Positions 1,741 to 8,135 of a stretch of DNA of 64,000 nucleotides are shown here, one piece after another. A program made the position numbers and the translations under genes. Position 1 is the stretch's first letter; each line of letters begins with the position of its first letter. The stretch covers positions 109,234 to 173,233 of the forward strand of contig JADHSC010000001.1 of NCBI GenBank assembly GCA_016777125.1, in the 5' to 3' direction. The notes under the pieces are model-generated. The model did no database searches. It was given only the letters and a program-made list of their open reading frames with translations, and was not told the DNA's origin. The stretch is from Candidatus Poseidoniaceae archaeon. Lineage in GTDB: Archaea; Thermoplasmatota; Poseidoniia; Poseidoniales; Poseidoniaceae.

Positions 1741-2544
1741 TCAAGCAATACGCTCGACAGTTTCTGGTGTAATACCCTCTTCTGGAGTAACACGGAAAAC
1801 CAACATTTTCAGATTCTCGGGAGCATTTCTGAACTTAGAAACAATCATCGAGGTTTCGAAATCAGATCCAACAGTACGTACTCCAAAGGTGAGAACCATA
1901 TCAGCAATACTTGCAAGTTCTTGGCGTATTGAAGGAGATAAACCATTGACTGAAACGCTGATCAACAAAAGGCCACGATACATTTGTGTGTGAGCCTGAA
2001 GCATACGAATCATTGCTACAACCCGATTTGGATCATCACGTTGTAAGAAGAAGTCAAGACTGTCAATAGCAGCTCTGAAGTATGGCCCTAAAGCCATAAT
2101 TTCATTGGTCACTTCAGTGAGGTAGTCTTGGTTATTCTCGTCTACGAATCGTGTCTGAGCAAGTCGTTGAATATCTTCAAGACGGAATCCTTCGAGACGG
2201 TAACGGCTTGCTAGAAGTTCACGTTCGAGAACATTTGAGTTGTATTCTTCACCAATTGTGCGAACGTTAATGTCGAGTGGCCATCCGTATTTCTTGAAAA
2301 CACGAACAATCTCTGGTTGTCCTTCGTTGGTTGAAATGTAGAGAGTATTTTCGGACTCTTCGGCAGGAGAAACGTACTGCTTTGCGAATAATTCAGCACC
2401 AGAACCCGTTTCAGTAAACGCAACCATTGTAAATCCACGAGGGATTCCTCCGTTCATTTCACCATCGAACTTAGGGACTCCAAAAGAGCCAACTTGTCCA
2501 AAGAATTCTTCATCTTCCTTATCGAATGTAATCTTCTTTTTCAT
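1741..2544 (-). CDS. KaiC/RecA-superfamily-like protein with degenerate Walker A
   Basis: GGIPRGFTMVAFTETGSGAELFAKQY resembles the KaiC P-loop region but lacks GKT/S; downstream AAIDSLDFFL Walker B-like strand. Confidence 0.65.
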   Translation of the reverse strand: MKKKITFDKEDEEFFGQVGSFGVPKFDGEMNGGIPRGFTMVAFTETGSGAELFAKQYVSPAEESENTLYISTNEGQPEIVRVFKKYGWPLDINVRTIGEEYNSNVLERELLASRYRLEGFRLEDIQRLAQTRFVDENNQDYLTEVTNEIMALGPYFRAAIDSLDFFLQRDDPNRVVAMIRMLQAHTQMYRGLLLISVSVNGLSPSIRQELASIADMVLTFGVRTVGSDFETSMIVSKFRNAPENLKMLVFRVTPEEGITPETVERIA

Positions 2545-2556
2545 CTAAATCCCTCC

Positions 2557-3147
2557 TCAATGAATGACCACTTGCCCACGATCAACAAGGTCAGTACAAT
2601 ACAAATCAAGATTTGAAAGAACCAATGGTGGTGTTTGGTCAGGTACATTTAGGATAATCGAGAGAACTTCTCTCTGCCTAAACGTGTTGATGAACGTATG
2701 AAGGTATTCAGCAAGCATTCGATCCTCGTTGTAGATTGCAAGCGCATTTACGCTGTCAATGAACACAAAATTTCTTGCGGAAGAGGTCGTTCGCAGAATA
2801 TACAATGTCCGTAGAAGGACTGATTCAAGCATAATTGGACTATCAACAAAGTGGATGTTTGAATATTCCACATCGGTGCCTCCCAGAATACCTGATGAAA
2901 CAAGGTCGATGAATTGAATGTTTGAAACATCAACGCCGATTGATTCGAAGGCTTGGATAATTTCTACTGCGCCTCGGCTTGCAGTAATGTAGACCCCGCC
3001 CATTTCGAACATCTGCATCAATGGAAGCATTGTACTTGCAGTAACCATAAATGCATTTGAATTTCCACAGCGAACTTGGACGGAACTGTTCAGAGAGATT
3101 GTCGATAATTGTTCAGCAATTCTTTGATCGAGTTCAAACATAATCAT
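2557..3147 (-). CDS. KaiC/RecA-like protein lacking Walker A (putative pseudo-ATPase)
   Basis: Fold-like pattern (NFVFIDSVNALAIYNEDRMLAEYLHTFINTFRQREV) similar to its neighbours; no GxxxxGK[ST]. Confidence 0.5.
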   Translation of the reverse strand: MIMFELDQRIAEQLSTISLNSSVQVRCGNSNAFMVTASTMLPLMQMFEMGGVYITASRGAVEIIQAFESIGVDVSNIQFIDLVSSGILGGTDVEYSNIHFVDSPIMLESVLLRTLYILRTTSSARNFVFIDSVNALAIYNEDRMLAEYLHTFINTFRQREVLSIILNVPDQTPPLVLSNLDLYCTDLVDRGQVVIH

Positions 3148-3923
3148 GCACCCCAGTTAGCGCTATCAGTTTGAGATCCCCATTTCAACATCGGCGTCAA
3201 CATGACACCAAGCGGCGTCAGTTCAATAGCGTGTTTCGCCCTACTGTGCGATGTTCCGCGCATCTTTACGACCTGCAAGAATCTCAATAAATGGCCCATT
3301 CGTTCAACGTCTCCCATGACAACAATTCCATCGGCTATCGCTTCTTCAACACCAAATGAAGACCAATGAGCATTTTCTGTCGCTGATGTAATTTCAGAAA
3401 TCAGGATGGTTGTGCAACCGAGAGTCGCAAGTTTCTTTCCGAGTGTAAACAGGAAATCCCGAATCAGTTGTTCGGATTTAATCTTGTAACATAGAGTCGT
3501 AACTGAATCAATAACCAATCGCGTAACACCGATTGTGTTAACAATATCAGTGATGGATTTGATCAGTGCGTGAACATCGTCTAGATCAAAAGTTGATTTG
3601 TCAAGACCGAGCCAGGAGTAGAGAACGTCCATGTCAAAAACGTTGATCAGGCCTGTATCGACCATATTCATGTCAAAGAACGCATATTGGCGGATATTTT
3701 CTAAAAGTTTTACCGAGGGTTCAGTTGCAGTAAAGTGAGCACATGCCTCACCGGCGAGAGCGCCACGAACAAGGAATTCCATAGCCAAAGTGGTTTTTCC
3801 AGAACCGCAGGTCCCAGAAGCCAGAACCGTGGAGCCATAGGGAATGCCTCCTCGCAAAATCTCATCCAATCCATGGATGCCTGTAACACAACGGTCTCGT
3901 GAATAAGTGGAAGCGGCTTGCAC
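3144..3923 (-). CDS. KaiC-domain ATPase (RecA superfamily), intact Walker A
   Basis: TGIHGLDEILRGGIPYGSTVLASGTCGSGKTTLAMEFLVRGA and RLVIDSVTTL; typical KaiC/GvpD/RAD55-type. Confidence 0.88.
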   Translation of the reverse strand: MQAASTYSRDRCVTGIHGLDEILRGGIPYGSTVLASGTCGSGKTTLAMEFLVRGALAGEACAHFTATEPSVKLLENIRQYAFFDMNMVDTGLINVFDMDVLYSWLGLDKSTFDLDDVHALIKSITDIVNTIGVTRLVIDSVTTLCYKIKSEQLIRDFLFTLGKKLATLGCTTILISEITSATENAHWSSFGVEEAIADGIVVMGDVERMGHLLRFLQVVKMRGTSHSRAKHAIELTPLGVMLTPMLKWGSQTDSANWGA

Positions 3924-3952: not shown

Positions 3953-5059
3953 TCATGAAGCATTTGTTACACTCGGAGGCACATCACCGGGTGTTGCAAC
4001 TTGATTTACATTCCAAGATGCCGAGTTCAACGGGCTACCGCCCTCCCAAACAAGCGCATTATTTATTCCAAGTAACAATCCTGTTTGACCACCCCACTCC
4101 GCTCGAGAATTTGGTAGCGGTTTTGTTTGACCTGGCCGGGTAAATCTCAATTCAATGACACTACTACCATCGTCGAGGAGATTCATAGAACCCGTGCCGA
4201 GAATGCCGAAGGTACCCAAATCGATCATCTGAGTGGCGTTACCTTGTACTTGAGACGAAATTGAACCAGTAAATAATGCGGTTGAATAACCGCTTATCAC
4301 TCCACTTTGGAACAAAACATTGTTTGTTGAACTTGGAGAGGTCACATTGAGAGACCATCCAAAGAGGCTTGTTGCAAAGGAATTGTCATTGTAAATTTCA
4401 ATCCATTCAGGGCCCCCTCCAATCGGGCGAGCCATTACTTCGGTTAGCACAAGATTCTCGCTTTGCCTTCCCGCATCATGAACTTGTAAAGTAACGATAA
4501 CGAGTTCGCCCGACATACGCACGATACTTGAGGCCGTAGATGCCATTCGAGCTGAATTAATATCTGAGCCTCCCTCGAAAAGGACGAGGCCAACACGAGT
4601 AGTGTTTGTGGAGGTCTGGACACTGATATGCAAATAGGCGCTCAGGTCTTCAGCAAGACCAAGCCCTTCGGAAAAGGATTCGAGCGTCACATTCGACAAT
4701 GCTTTGAGTCGATTTTCATCGAGTTCCCCTGCCAAAATAAGGCCGGTTTGAACACGCCCCTTTTGCAAGTCCTCGGCACTTACATCGTCCCAATCTGATG
4801 TTGAGTTCGTATGGTCTAATTCGCCATTTTCTAGCGCAGGAACGTACCAGCCCGAATCGCCAACAAGGCGGTCCAGTGCAAACACTGTAGCTTGGTCAAC
4901 TTGGTCGATTTCTGTATCATTCGATCCCATTTCAAGTTGGGCGAGAGACATAAACGCAGTTAATATCATGAGGAAAAGTGTGAACGCTGAGAGGAATTCA
5001 ATCACTGCTGTTAAGCCTCTCTCATCTGAGCGAATGCACGTGTGCCCAGACTCCTCCAT
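3953..5059 (-). CDS. Pilin-like N-terminus fused to lamin-tail-like domain, secreted/surface protein
   Basis: N-term RSDERGLTAVIEFLSAFTLFLMILTAFMSLAQLEMG (type IV pilin-like hydrophobic helix); C-term VLTEVMARPIGGGPEWIEIYNDNSFATSLFGWSLNV (LTD-like). Confidence 0.6.
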   Translation of the reverse strand: MEESGHTCIRSDERGLTAVIEFLSAFTLFLMILTAFMSLAQLEMGSNDTEIDQVDQATVFALDRLVGDSGWYVPALENGELDHTNSTSDWDDVSAEDLQKGRVQTGLILAGELDENRLKALSNVTLESFSEGLGLAEDLSAYLHISVQTSTNTTRVGLVLFEGGSDINSARMASTASSIVRMSGELVIVTLQVHDAGRQSENLVLTEVMARPIGGGPEWIEIYNDNSFATSLFGWSLNVTSPSSTNNVLFQSGVISGYSTALFTGSISSQVQGNATQMIDLGTFGILGTGSMNLLDDGSSVIELRFTRPGQTKPLPNSRAEWGGQTGLLLGINNALVWEGGSPLNSASWNVNQVATPGDVPPSVTNAS

Positions 5060-5195
5060 ACCAACACCAACACAAACGAAGTCATGAACGTTGCCGAACC
5101 ATCAAGGGGTGAATTTACTGTAATTTGACCCCAAATCAAGCGATGAGTCTTTGAATCATCTATGCGACCACCGTATGATGACAGGAGCGGATAGC

Positions 5196-8135
5196 ATGAC
5201 CGTTGGCAAGAAAAAGACGAGCTTTAGCTTGGTTTTCCTTATGCTTTTTTCAGCATTTTCAATGCTAGCATATGTACCGAGCGCGGCTGCTGTCGAACAA
5301 ATTGACCTCGCTATTGTGTCTGGTCAGACTCCAGTCGAGGATCGCTTTTATTCAGCATTAGACCCAATTACGTTCACAGTGGAAGTCGAAAATCAAGCAT
5401 TAAGCCCTTTAACAAATACGCGGACGTTGAAATGGTACGTTTGTGATGGGCCTCGAACTGCAGTTTCGTGCATCTCGAATAATATCGAAGATGGAGGGAT
5501 GAACATTAACGGATTACTAAGTGGAGAATCTGCTAACTTCTCTGACTCGAACAGATGGTCCCCCTCTGGCGCCACTGGTACCTTTACAGTCGTTTTCAAA
5601 TTCGATTATGCAGACATTGACACAAGCGATGATATCCACTCATACAACATCAATCTTACAGCTGAATTCAGCGATATTGCAATCGATAACGAACAAGACC
5701 CTCGAGATACTCTTTCTGCCCTACATACCTACAACGGTGAAGTTGTATTGAATACTGAAGTCGAGTATGAGATGGACATCTATGGAATAGCAAACACATG
5801 CGGAACGTGCAATCTTGTTGCTAACATCGGATGGAACCTCATGACTCTCGATGGAACCGTCGTCAGTAATGCAACACGAAGTGTGACAAACCTACCATCT
5901 GGAGGATACGAACAACCATTCACAGTTGCCATGCCTGCATTAAATTATTCAATACCGGGAAGATTCATCTTTGAATTCGGACTCATGAGTAGTTCTGGCT
6001 CATATGATGGTGACCTCAATTCATTCAATGATCTTACACAAATCGAAATTGTTCTAGACAATACACTTGATCTAAGAATTGCGAGTATGTATCCATCGCA
6101 TGACCAATCATCGCCTTCGTACTATTACGGAGAGGATATGATTTCTGCTAAGATAGAAAACATAGGCAATTTCACAATTATAGACACTACAGTCACCTTT
6201 GAGATGTTTGATGCCCAAGGAGAATCAGAACATCTTGAGATGTGTGACATCGATTCACTTGGCCCATCACAGTTCATCACATGTACATTTGATATCGTCG
6301 AAGAAGGAGATGGGAAGGAACTTCGCGTCTATATGCCAACATCATTTGATGGTCGTGCAGACACAGCCCCTTCTGACAATACACTGGTCGAATATGCCGA
6401 CATAACTGCGGGAGGTATCGATCCTTCAATTGGGCTCAACACAGTATCGGGCACGTTCACTACTGCTGATACAATCGATCTCAGCGCACAAACCAGCAAC
6501 ATTGCAGCCAACCCCCTGAACTACACGTGGACGCTTAATACAGCTTGGCAAGGCCATGGGCAATTCCTAAGCATCAATGCCTCGTCTTTCCCTCTGAAAT
6601 CATATATTGTCGGATTGGCAGTTGAAGACGCTCTTGGAAACACAGAATATGCATACAGGACGATACAACTCATTGACGAAGTCGTCGTTGAAGAAGAACC
6701 CCTGATGACAGGTTCAATTGTTTCTCTCGATAAAGCCGAATTTTCGTATGATTATTTCTTGCCGATACAAGGTTCGGAATACAATATTGCTGGAGGAAAA
6801 GAGCCTCTAATGATTCTCGAACTTAATGCTATGAAACTCGACGACAACACGCAACCTGCAGATATTCAGTCGATGGATTTGACAGTGAATCTATCAGCGC
6901 TTTTGCCGGATATGATTCCATTCGAGTCTGTAGAAATCCTGGAATTACCAGATTCGGCCGAAACGTATTGGGATTATCTTGAATCACCGAATTATTACTC
7001 ATTTGATGGAATTCAAAACATTTCATTAAGCCTGAGTAGCAATACTGTTATCCTCTTCATCGGATCGTTGCCAGAGGCCGATGTTTCTGCTAATAACACC
7101 GAATACAAGCAACTCGAAGGCGGTTCTATAGAATTATCTTGGACTGCTGAAGGTGATGTATCCAACCCATATTTAGGAGGCTGGAGAGTCTACAAACTAC
7201 CCGTTGGCGAAGCAGGTGGAACAATCTTCCCAAATCCTGATGAAGAAGACAGTCAAAGCCTGTGGACTCAACTTATTGATGAAAGATTTGTAGAAATGAT
7301 ATCAATTACAACCGAGAGTTGGGTTGATCCAGAACCACTCCCTACTGGAACTTGTGCTTCCTATGCCCTCATTCCTTCAAATCGGGCTGACGTTCCAGAT
7401 TTGTCCAGAATTAATGTGTTCATGAATGCTGAAGGAAGTTCCATGTTGTGCGGAGATGCAATCGCTCCGTCAAGTACGGTCTCTTCATTCACCCATTCTT
7501 ACAGATTTACCAATTCAACGACGTGTTTCGATCTTCAGCGAAATTGGAATTCTTGCTATGAACTAAACCTCACATGGACATGGCCACAAAATGAAATCGA
7601 TGGTGAAGTGACATGGAACCTGTATCGCCTCGATACACGACCTAATCAACTTGAATTGAGGTATGTCAATCCTATTGCCACTGGCTTAAGTGGAATTCAA
7701 GGAGAAACAGGTACATTCAATCAATCTGGCTTGGAAGCAGATGGCATACGCCCAGGCAGGACATACTTCTACGTCCTCTCACCTGTTGATGGGCGAGGGA
7801 ATGCAATGACTATTGCAGAATACCCCAGTGAGAACACAGAACGCGTGGAAATCGAAAACAAATGGTGGGATTACAACCAGCACATCATTCCTGAAGAACC
7901 AGAGCCTCCAGAACCACCTCTTGGAATTGATTGGCTTGGGGATTTAGAGGATTCAATGGAAGTCAAAGAATTCCAATATGCTGGTATCGGAGCATTGATT
8001 CTCGTTGTTTTGAATGCCTTACTCATTCCAATGATGATCAAGCGTAGAAGAAGACTCAAGCGCGTGATAGCTGCTCGAAATCGTCGAATGGGCACAGCGA
8101 ATATGGCGGAAGAGTTCGAAGAATTCTTTGAGTGA
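5196..8135 (+). CDS. Large secreted/surface-anchored protein with signal peptide and C-terminal TM helix
   Basis: MTVGKKKTSFSLVFLMLFSAFSMLAYVPSAAA signal; CARDB-like repeated beta segments; C-term YAGIGALILVVLNALLIPMMIKRRRRLK. ORF track starts at 5151. Confidence 0.7.
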   Translation: MTVGKKKTSFSLVFLMLFSAFSMLAYVPSAAAVEQIDLAIVSGQTPVEDRFYSALDPITFTVEVENQALSPLTNTRTLKWYVCDGPRTAVSCISNNIEDGGMNINGLLSGESANFSDSNRWSPSGATGTFTVVFKFDYADIDTSDDIHSYNINLTAEFSDIAIDNEQDPRDTLSALHTYNGEVVLNTEVEYEMDIYGIANTCGTCNLVANIGWNLMTLDGTVVSNATRSVTNLPSGGYEQPFTVAMPALNYSIPGRFIFEFGLMSSSGSYDGDLNSFNDLTQIEIVLDNTLDLRIASMYPSHDQSSPSYYYGEDMISAKIENIGNFTIIDTTVTFEMFDAQGESEHLEMCDIDSLGPSQFITCTFDIVEEGDGKELRVYMPTSFDGRADTAPSDNTLVEYADITAGGIDPSIGLNTVSGTFTTADTIDLSAQTSNIAANPLNYTWTLNTAWQGHGQFLSINASSFPLKSYIVGLAVEDALGNTEYAYRTIQLIDEVVVEEEPLMTGSIVSLDKAEFSYDYFLPIQGSEYNIAGGKEPLMILELNAMKLDDNTQPADIQSMDLTVNLSALLPDMIPFESVEILELPDSAETYWDYLESPNYYSFDGIQNISLSLSSNTVILFIGSLPEADVSANNTEYKQLEGGSIELSWTAEGDVSNPYLGGWRVYKLPVGEAGGTIFPNPDEEDSQSLWTQLIDERFVEMISITTESWVDPEPLPTGTCASYALIPSNRADVPDLSRINVFMNAEGSSMLCGDAIAPSSTVSSFTHSYRFTNSTTCFDLQRNWNSCYELNLTWTWPQNEIDGEVTWNLYRLDTRPNQLELRYVNPIATGLSGIQGETGTFNQSGLEADGIRPGRTYFYVLSPVDGRGNAMTIAEYPSENTERVEIENKWWDYNQHIIPEEPEPPEPPLGIDWLGDLEDSMEVKEFQYAGIGALILVVLNALLIPMMIKRRRRLKRVIAARNRRMGTANMAEEFEEFFE

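Follow-up and report, generated by a model that had tools for sequence, protein, structure and literature searches.

Several KaiC-related proteins have been described in archaea. ArlH, encoded by a single gene in the archaellum operon, binds but does not hydrolyse ATP; it phosphorylates itself and acts as a modulator of the motor ATPase (PMC8978795). KaiC-like ATPases are also encoded near archaeal type IV pilus loci, for which PMC4858521 lists arCOG01171, arCOG01174 and arCOG01175, and in Haloferax volcanii the KaiC-like regulator CirA affects motility as well as cell shape (PMC13286277). In addition, inactivated KaiC-like domains, called iKaiC, take part in archaeal signalling and are defined as such in PMC5847659. 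The locus considered here comes from a member of Marine Group II, which are described as outnumbering all other planktonic archaea in ocean surface waters and are thought to attach to particles (PMC6461757).

The source genome is that of a Poseidoniaceae archaeon (Marine Group II), and the window, to which all coordinates of the trio refer, is the whole analysed stretch of 64,000 nucleotides. An earlier note on this DNA had reported three neighbouring KaiC-family reading frames, one with an intact P-loop and two with degenerate ones, and the ORF calls together with Pfam confirm it. We call the genes K1, K2 and K3, and the pilin-like gene ahead of them PIL.

3144-3923, minus strand: K1, KaiC-family ATPase of 259 aa with intact Walker A, Walker B, TEP glutamate and KMR finger.
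3789-3815, minus strand: K1 P-loop GTCGSGKTT, residues 37-45, from the sequence and orthologue alignments.
3258-3266, minus strand: K1 K-M-R finger, residues 220-222, aligned with KaiC K224/R226 and found in 52/52 distant trios.
2557-3147, minus strand: K2, KaiC-fold pseudo-ATPase (predicted fold), short (196 aa) and without P-loop.
1741-2544, minus strand: K3, KaiC-fold pseudo-ATPase (predicted fold) of 267 aa with acidified P-loop and retained K-F-R-N finger.
2392-2415, minus strand: K3 pseudo-P-loop TETGSGAE, residues 44-51, with Glu51 at the Walker-A Ser/Thr position.
1825-1836, minus strand: K3 K-F-R-N finger, residues 237-240, from Poseidoniales and distant-trio alignments.
3953-5059, minus strand: PIL, pilin-like protein of 368 aa, first gene of the K1-K2-K3 operon.

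The Walker A motif of an active ATPase, GxxxxGK[ST], occurs in K1 (within SGTCGSGKTTL), is missing in K2 and in K3 has FTETGSGAELF in its place, just as had been read from the letters. The tight spacing taken earlier as a sign of an operon holds as well, with a 4-bp overlap (ATGA) between K1 and K2 and a gap of 12 bp between K2 and K3. The Walker-B strands were less exactly described: a hydrophobic strand ending in IDS is present in all three proteins (LVIDS in K1, VFIDS in K2, AAIDS in K3), but the literal pattern [VA][IF]IDS fits K2 alone. Absent from the earlier note is the fourth operon member, PIL, which lies 29 bp upstream of K1. Its leader, RSDERG/LTAVIEFL, is of class III type by inspection, and it matches the lamin-tail domain PF00932 (LTD) weakly, with 29.9 bits under a cut-off of 34.3; the PIL homologue upstream of K1 in the distant locus L174 reaches 44.3 bits, over that cut-off. 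Divergent from the operon (window 5151-8135, plus strand) stands a gene for a secreted-looking surface protein of 994 aa with a C-terminal membrane helix, which is syntenic in most Poseidoniales loci, has no Pfam family and is possibly part of the same surface system.

Regarding family membership, the Pfam KaiC profile PF06745 (gathering score 26.6) gives 177.9 bits for K1, 59.4 for K3 and 26.9, barely over, for K2, and all 23 of the 23 K3 relatives match it at E <= 0.001. K1 is assigned to the KaiC/RecA fold from its sequence. For K2 and K3 the same fold is predicted by AlphaFold2 models (pLDDT 86.3 and 80.3), whose best Foldseek matches in the PDB are KaiC, the KaiC-like PH0284/SSO2452 and FlaH, with E values of about 1e-7 for K2 and 1e-11 for K3; the view of the degenerate proteins as RecA-like is thus upheld by modelling. 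The link of K2 to KaiC is made by the fold search and the marginal Pfam match only: phmmer of K2 against the PDB gave no match, and hhalign of K2 against K1 or K3 gave nothing significant, which we attribute to the shallowness of the profiles (Neff ~1.6), while K3 against K1 gave an E value of 1e-5. By alignment, K2 is without the N-terminal KaiC segment and ends ahead of the C-terminal finger hairpin. The KMR of K1 was aligned by HMMER with KaiC residues 224-226 (K224-L225-R226). In KaiC, finger residues of the K224/R226 region contact the ATP of the adjacent subunit. Two other assignments fall away: K1 is no RadA/RadB recombinase, as the RadB profile gives it 24.9 bits where the cut-off is 278, and the proteins are no cyanobacterial clock KaiC, each having one KaiC domain in 196-267 aa instead of two. 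K2 and K3 combine a predicted KaiC fold, lost catalytic residues and conservation of the protein, which are the marks of iKaiC.

Within Poseidoniales, over 100 loci share the arrangement PIL-K1-K2-K3, with PIL adjoining K1 in nearly all of them, and K1 and K2 are better conserved than their neighbour genes. The median dN/dS, taken from close pairs as distant ones are mostly saturated, is 0.010 for K1, 0.008 for K2 and 0.016 for K3, against 0.047 for PIL, and strong purifying selection acts on all three genes. The P-loop GxxGxGKT and the KMR of K1 are invariant in 70/70 distinct Poseidoniales sequences, one unrelated KaiC having been set aside. As to K3, the Walker lysine position holds S, A, M or L in 81/82 sequences and the Walker-A Ser/Thr position holds Glu or Asp in 82/82, and its finger is conserved at K237 (81/82) and R239 (82/82). 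The K2 frames are open in the listed Poseidoniales genomes, with the sole exception of a stop in genus g15, which falls at the extreme C-terminus, at or adjacent to the normal stop.

At the level of the phylum, a K2 profile found relatives in 116 of 243 Thermoplasmatota genomes and in 63 of 123 genera. Loci were taken around 80 distant K2 hits, some of the non-trio ones being cut by contig ends, and 52 of the 80 carry K1-K2-K3 in tandem, on one strand and in the same order. Together with the loci of Poseidoniales, this puts the arrangement far outside what chance would produce. In a FastTree phylogeny K1, K2 and K3 are each monophyletic (support 0.77, 0.99 and 0.98), and therefore the duplications are older than the sampled families. 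Residues in the 52 trios were counted with clean profiles, that is, without the long-ORF sequences described below. K1 has GxxGxGKT in 51/51 aligned sequences and T67-E68, D139-S140, E177, K220 and R222 each in 52/52; K2 never has a Walker A, and its D81, P104, L107, E108, D131 and S132 are invariant (52/52). In K3, Glu or Asp stands at the Walker-A Ser/Thr position in 48/52 and Lys at the Walker K position in 5/52, K55-Q56 and E74 are invariant (52/52), and the finger has K in 49/49 aligned sequences and R or K in 48/49. The pattern of one catalytic and two pseudo-ATPase subunits, proposed earlier from the window alone, is thus repeated in the sequences of all 52 distant trios.

Loss of the P-loops in K2 and K3 would also fit decaying pseudogene copies of K1. 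Against this, the two proteins form monophyletic, phylum-wide families with a dN/dS of ~0.01 and residues invariant in 52/52 trios, and relaxed selection and broken frames were not what we found; the probability left to decay is negligible. With a predicted RecA fold and such conservation, K2 and K3 therefore show neither of the two outcomes, a non-RecA fold or decay, that the earlier note had named as contrary to its view.

A second, divergent KaiC/K2 arrangement was seen in family f16 (loci L190, L230, L232 and L237), where ORFs of 800-1512 aa, each with a single K1-like KaiC domain at the N-terminus and a long extension, are followed by two tandem K2-like genes; pilin and TadC profiles match near L232 and L237. 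The candidate idea that these ORFs are covalent KaiC multimers was rejected, as a single KaiC domain is present, and the bit scores resembling several KaiC domains arise because the profile was built partly from one such long ORF.

The trio is not complete everywhere. A search with the K3 profile gave no strong match in the K2-positive families f30, f38, f7 and f22 and only weak KaiC-level matches in f25 and f37, so that K3 has been lost there or is absent. The persistence of K1 and K2 in the K3-less lineages f30, f37, f38, f22 and f25 is what one would expect if the three proteins were co-expressed but formed separate homo-oligomers, K2 and K3 having other partners. We hold this rather improbable, for the tandem order is fixed and the spacing short or overlapping phylum-wide, and the retention of P-loop and finger is complementary in K1 and K3. 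The finger of K1 itself differs with the presence of K3: its Arg is found in 52/52 trios versus 13/23 loci where K3 is not beside K2, these 23 being phylogenetically clustered, partly cut by contig ends and including several K3-less families that keep KMR. By sequence, it looks as if the K1 finger were relaxed once K3 is gone, which is suggestive for a ring shared by K1 and K3. Six K3-less loci (L177, L178, L191, L198, L200 and L203) have K1 with the P-loop kept and the finger Arg lost, and most of them have also lost the TEP glutamate.

The earlier suggestion of a surface-appendage role gains support from the genes that adjoin the module. In L127 and L128 the operon runs prepilin-peptidase homologue, PIL, K1, K2, K3, type IV pilin; a pilin directly follows K3 in L132, L134 and L135, pilins follow K2 in seven distant loci (L177, L178, L185, L186, L200, L203 and L205), and the gene ahead of K1 in L174 and L192 encodes a PIL-like protein. 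The Pfam family Pilin_N matches neighbour pilins over its cut-off, and the peptidase of L186 reaches 39.0 bits for Arc_PepC_II (cut-off 29.9), that of L127 being just under with 26.7. Against the link, most trios of the large family f16, and likewise of f6 and f24, have no detected pilus gene next to them, and in the source genome the TadC/ATPase locus and a pilin lie far from the trio. This type IV pilin (L122:7980-8471, that is, G000:C1:7980-8471) shares the contig of the trio at a distance of about 100 kb and has homologues of moaA and aroA as its neighbours. Its counterpart in Thalassarchaeaceae comes directly after K3 and ahead of aroA; apparently, then, a rearrangement divided the locus. 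Since the trio recurs in the same order across the phylum, often near pilus genes, K2 and K3 are to be regarded as conserved working parts.

The machine in question is apparently not the archaellum, to which the earlier note had pointed through FlaH/ArlH. The archaellum genes of the source genome form an operon at G000:C42 that includes ArlI, ArlJ and an intact ArlH of its own, the trio being on contig C1. Two further loci are one of type IV pilus type, in which there are two TadC genes, and one of Tad type. Among 69 Thalassarchaeaceae genomes, where K2 is present in genera g15, g17, g19 and g21, K2 agrees with the two-TadC system (C7-type TadC) in 67/69 (11 both, 56 neither, 2 discordant), an association with p 8e-11 when genomes are treated as independent and phylogeny is ignored. 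In the same 69 genomes, and again ignoring phylogeny, K2 shows no association with ArlJ (p 0.29). For the Tad-type system the agreement with the trio is nearly as good as for the two-TadC one, the exception being the single genome of g21. This distribution may come from one or a few gain or loss events shared by many genes. In the phylum as a whole, T2SSF was found in 113/116 K2-positive versus 75/127 K2-negative genomes. As a side observation, g14 and g22 have retained the archaellum, and neither the trio nor the two-TadC pilus nor the Tad system is present in them.

An accessory module of the archaellum, with K3 as an ArlH-like subunit, would agree with the archaella of Poseidoniaceae and with ArlH (NF052589) as the best NCBIfam match of K3. 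The match is 49.7 bits, however, far under the cut-off of 215 (K1 has 35.8 bits and K2 no match; the genome's own ArlH scores 185.7, likewise under it), the genuine ArlH lies in the archaellum operon elsewhere, and the trio occurs without detected ArlJ in g17 and g21 while g14 and g22 have ArlJ without the trio. Such a module is therefore highly improbable, and an identity of trio members with ArlH was rejected on the same grounds of score, location outside the archaellum operon and missing co-occurrence with ArlJ.

A broader alternative is a general KaiC signalling hub in which K1 is the switch, K2 and K3 are input or output adaptors to transcription or other targets, and pilins are some of the targets. 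It draws on the recognition of iKaiC domains as a signalling element in archaea (PMC5847659) and on the several families in which no pilus gene was detected beside the trio. L174 (7285-8400) and L172 (3751-4875) have, moreover, a gene of ~370 aa between K2 and K3, which in L174 matches MetOD1 (methanogen output domain 1) with 24.5 bits over a cut-off of 23.8 and hints that the trio has an input or output in signalling. On the other hand, several different families encode a pilin, a pilin-like protein or a prepilin peptidase right next to the module, and the T2SSF platform gene accompanies K2 nearly throughout, as counted above; we regard the hub as possible, if somewhat doubtful.

For this ancient, phylum-wide KaiC-family module of Thermoplasmatota, the explanation to which we lean, slightly beyond an even chance, is a hetero-oligomeric KaiC switch of one catalytic and two pseudo-ATPase subunits that would control a type IV pilus system. 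The data themselves show three protein families with their predicted fold, tandem order and patterns of conservation, as well as the nearness to pilus genes and the co-occurrence with them. Binding and use of ATP would be left to K1 only. K3, given that its P-loop is acidified and its K-x-R/K finger nevertheless retained, would most likely sit beside K1 and complete the active site of K1 in trans, and the truncated K2, without P-loop and finger, would most likely be a cap or adaptor. By analogy with ArlH in the archaellum, the hetero-oligomer may act as an ATP-driven switch, perhaps an autophosphorylating one, its target being a separate machine of the type IV pilus type whose pilin-like proteins are encoded alongside the trio. 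A more specific form, which we put forward tentatively and think rather unlikely in all its details, is a ring of alternating K1 and K3 like the alpha/beta subunits of F1-ATPase. There the K-x-R/K finger of K3 would complete the ATP site of K1; the acidified P-loop of K3, with Glu/Asp in place of the Mg-binding Ser/Thr, would mimic a nucleotide phosphate and dock the KMR of K1; K2 would cap or break the ring; and the whole would have been a pilus switch fixed since the Thermoplasmatota ancestor.

KaiC-like proteins have been proposed as central signalling hubs of archaea, and the trio combines one active with two inactive subunits in a set that is fixed phylum-wide, hence a simple biochemical system for what pseudo-ATPases do in KaiC rings. 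It leads to predictions at the level of residues, namely that the K3 finger acts on the ATP of K1 and that the acid in the K3 P-loop is a structural substitute, and in Marine Group II archaea the trio becomes a candidate for regulating attachment filaments. In the literature searched, outside of which stands Makarova 2017 in mBio, no description was found of a fixed K1-K2-K3 trio in which a P-loop is acidified and a finger nevertheless kept.

Compared with cyanobacterial KaiC, the trio shares the fold and the KMR of K1; however, it has a single KaiC domain per protein, reaches 104 bits for circ_KaiC against a cut-off of 546, and has no recognised KaiA or KaiB gene alongside. With ArlH/FlaH it shares the KaiC fold and the link to type IV filament systems, but it consists of three paralogues outside the archaellum operon, two of them without a usable P-loop, in genomes that have ArlH as well. 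The ATPases of pilus loci in PMC4858521 are likewise KaiC-family ATPases encoded with type IV pilus genes, and K1 probably belongs to one of the three arCOGs named at the outset; a trio with two pseudo-ATPases is not described in the excerpted part of that source. The iKaiC proteins, in the excerpt defining them, are KaiC-family domains without catalytic residues and proposed partners of active KaiC-like ATPases, as K2 and K3 would be, but the examples given there are fused to receiver domains or DUF835/MEDS, whereas K2 and K3 stand alone, match PF06745 itself and belong to a fixed operon trio. The iKaiC category reportedly goes back to Makarova et al. (2017) in mBio. Inactivated KaiC homologues are already known as a category, and what appears new is their fixed place in the K1-K2-K3 trio.
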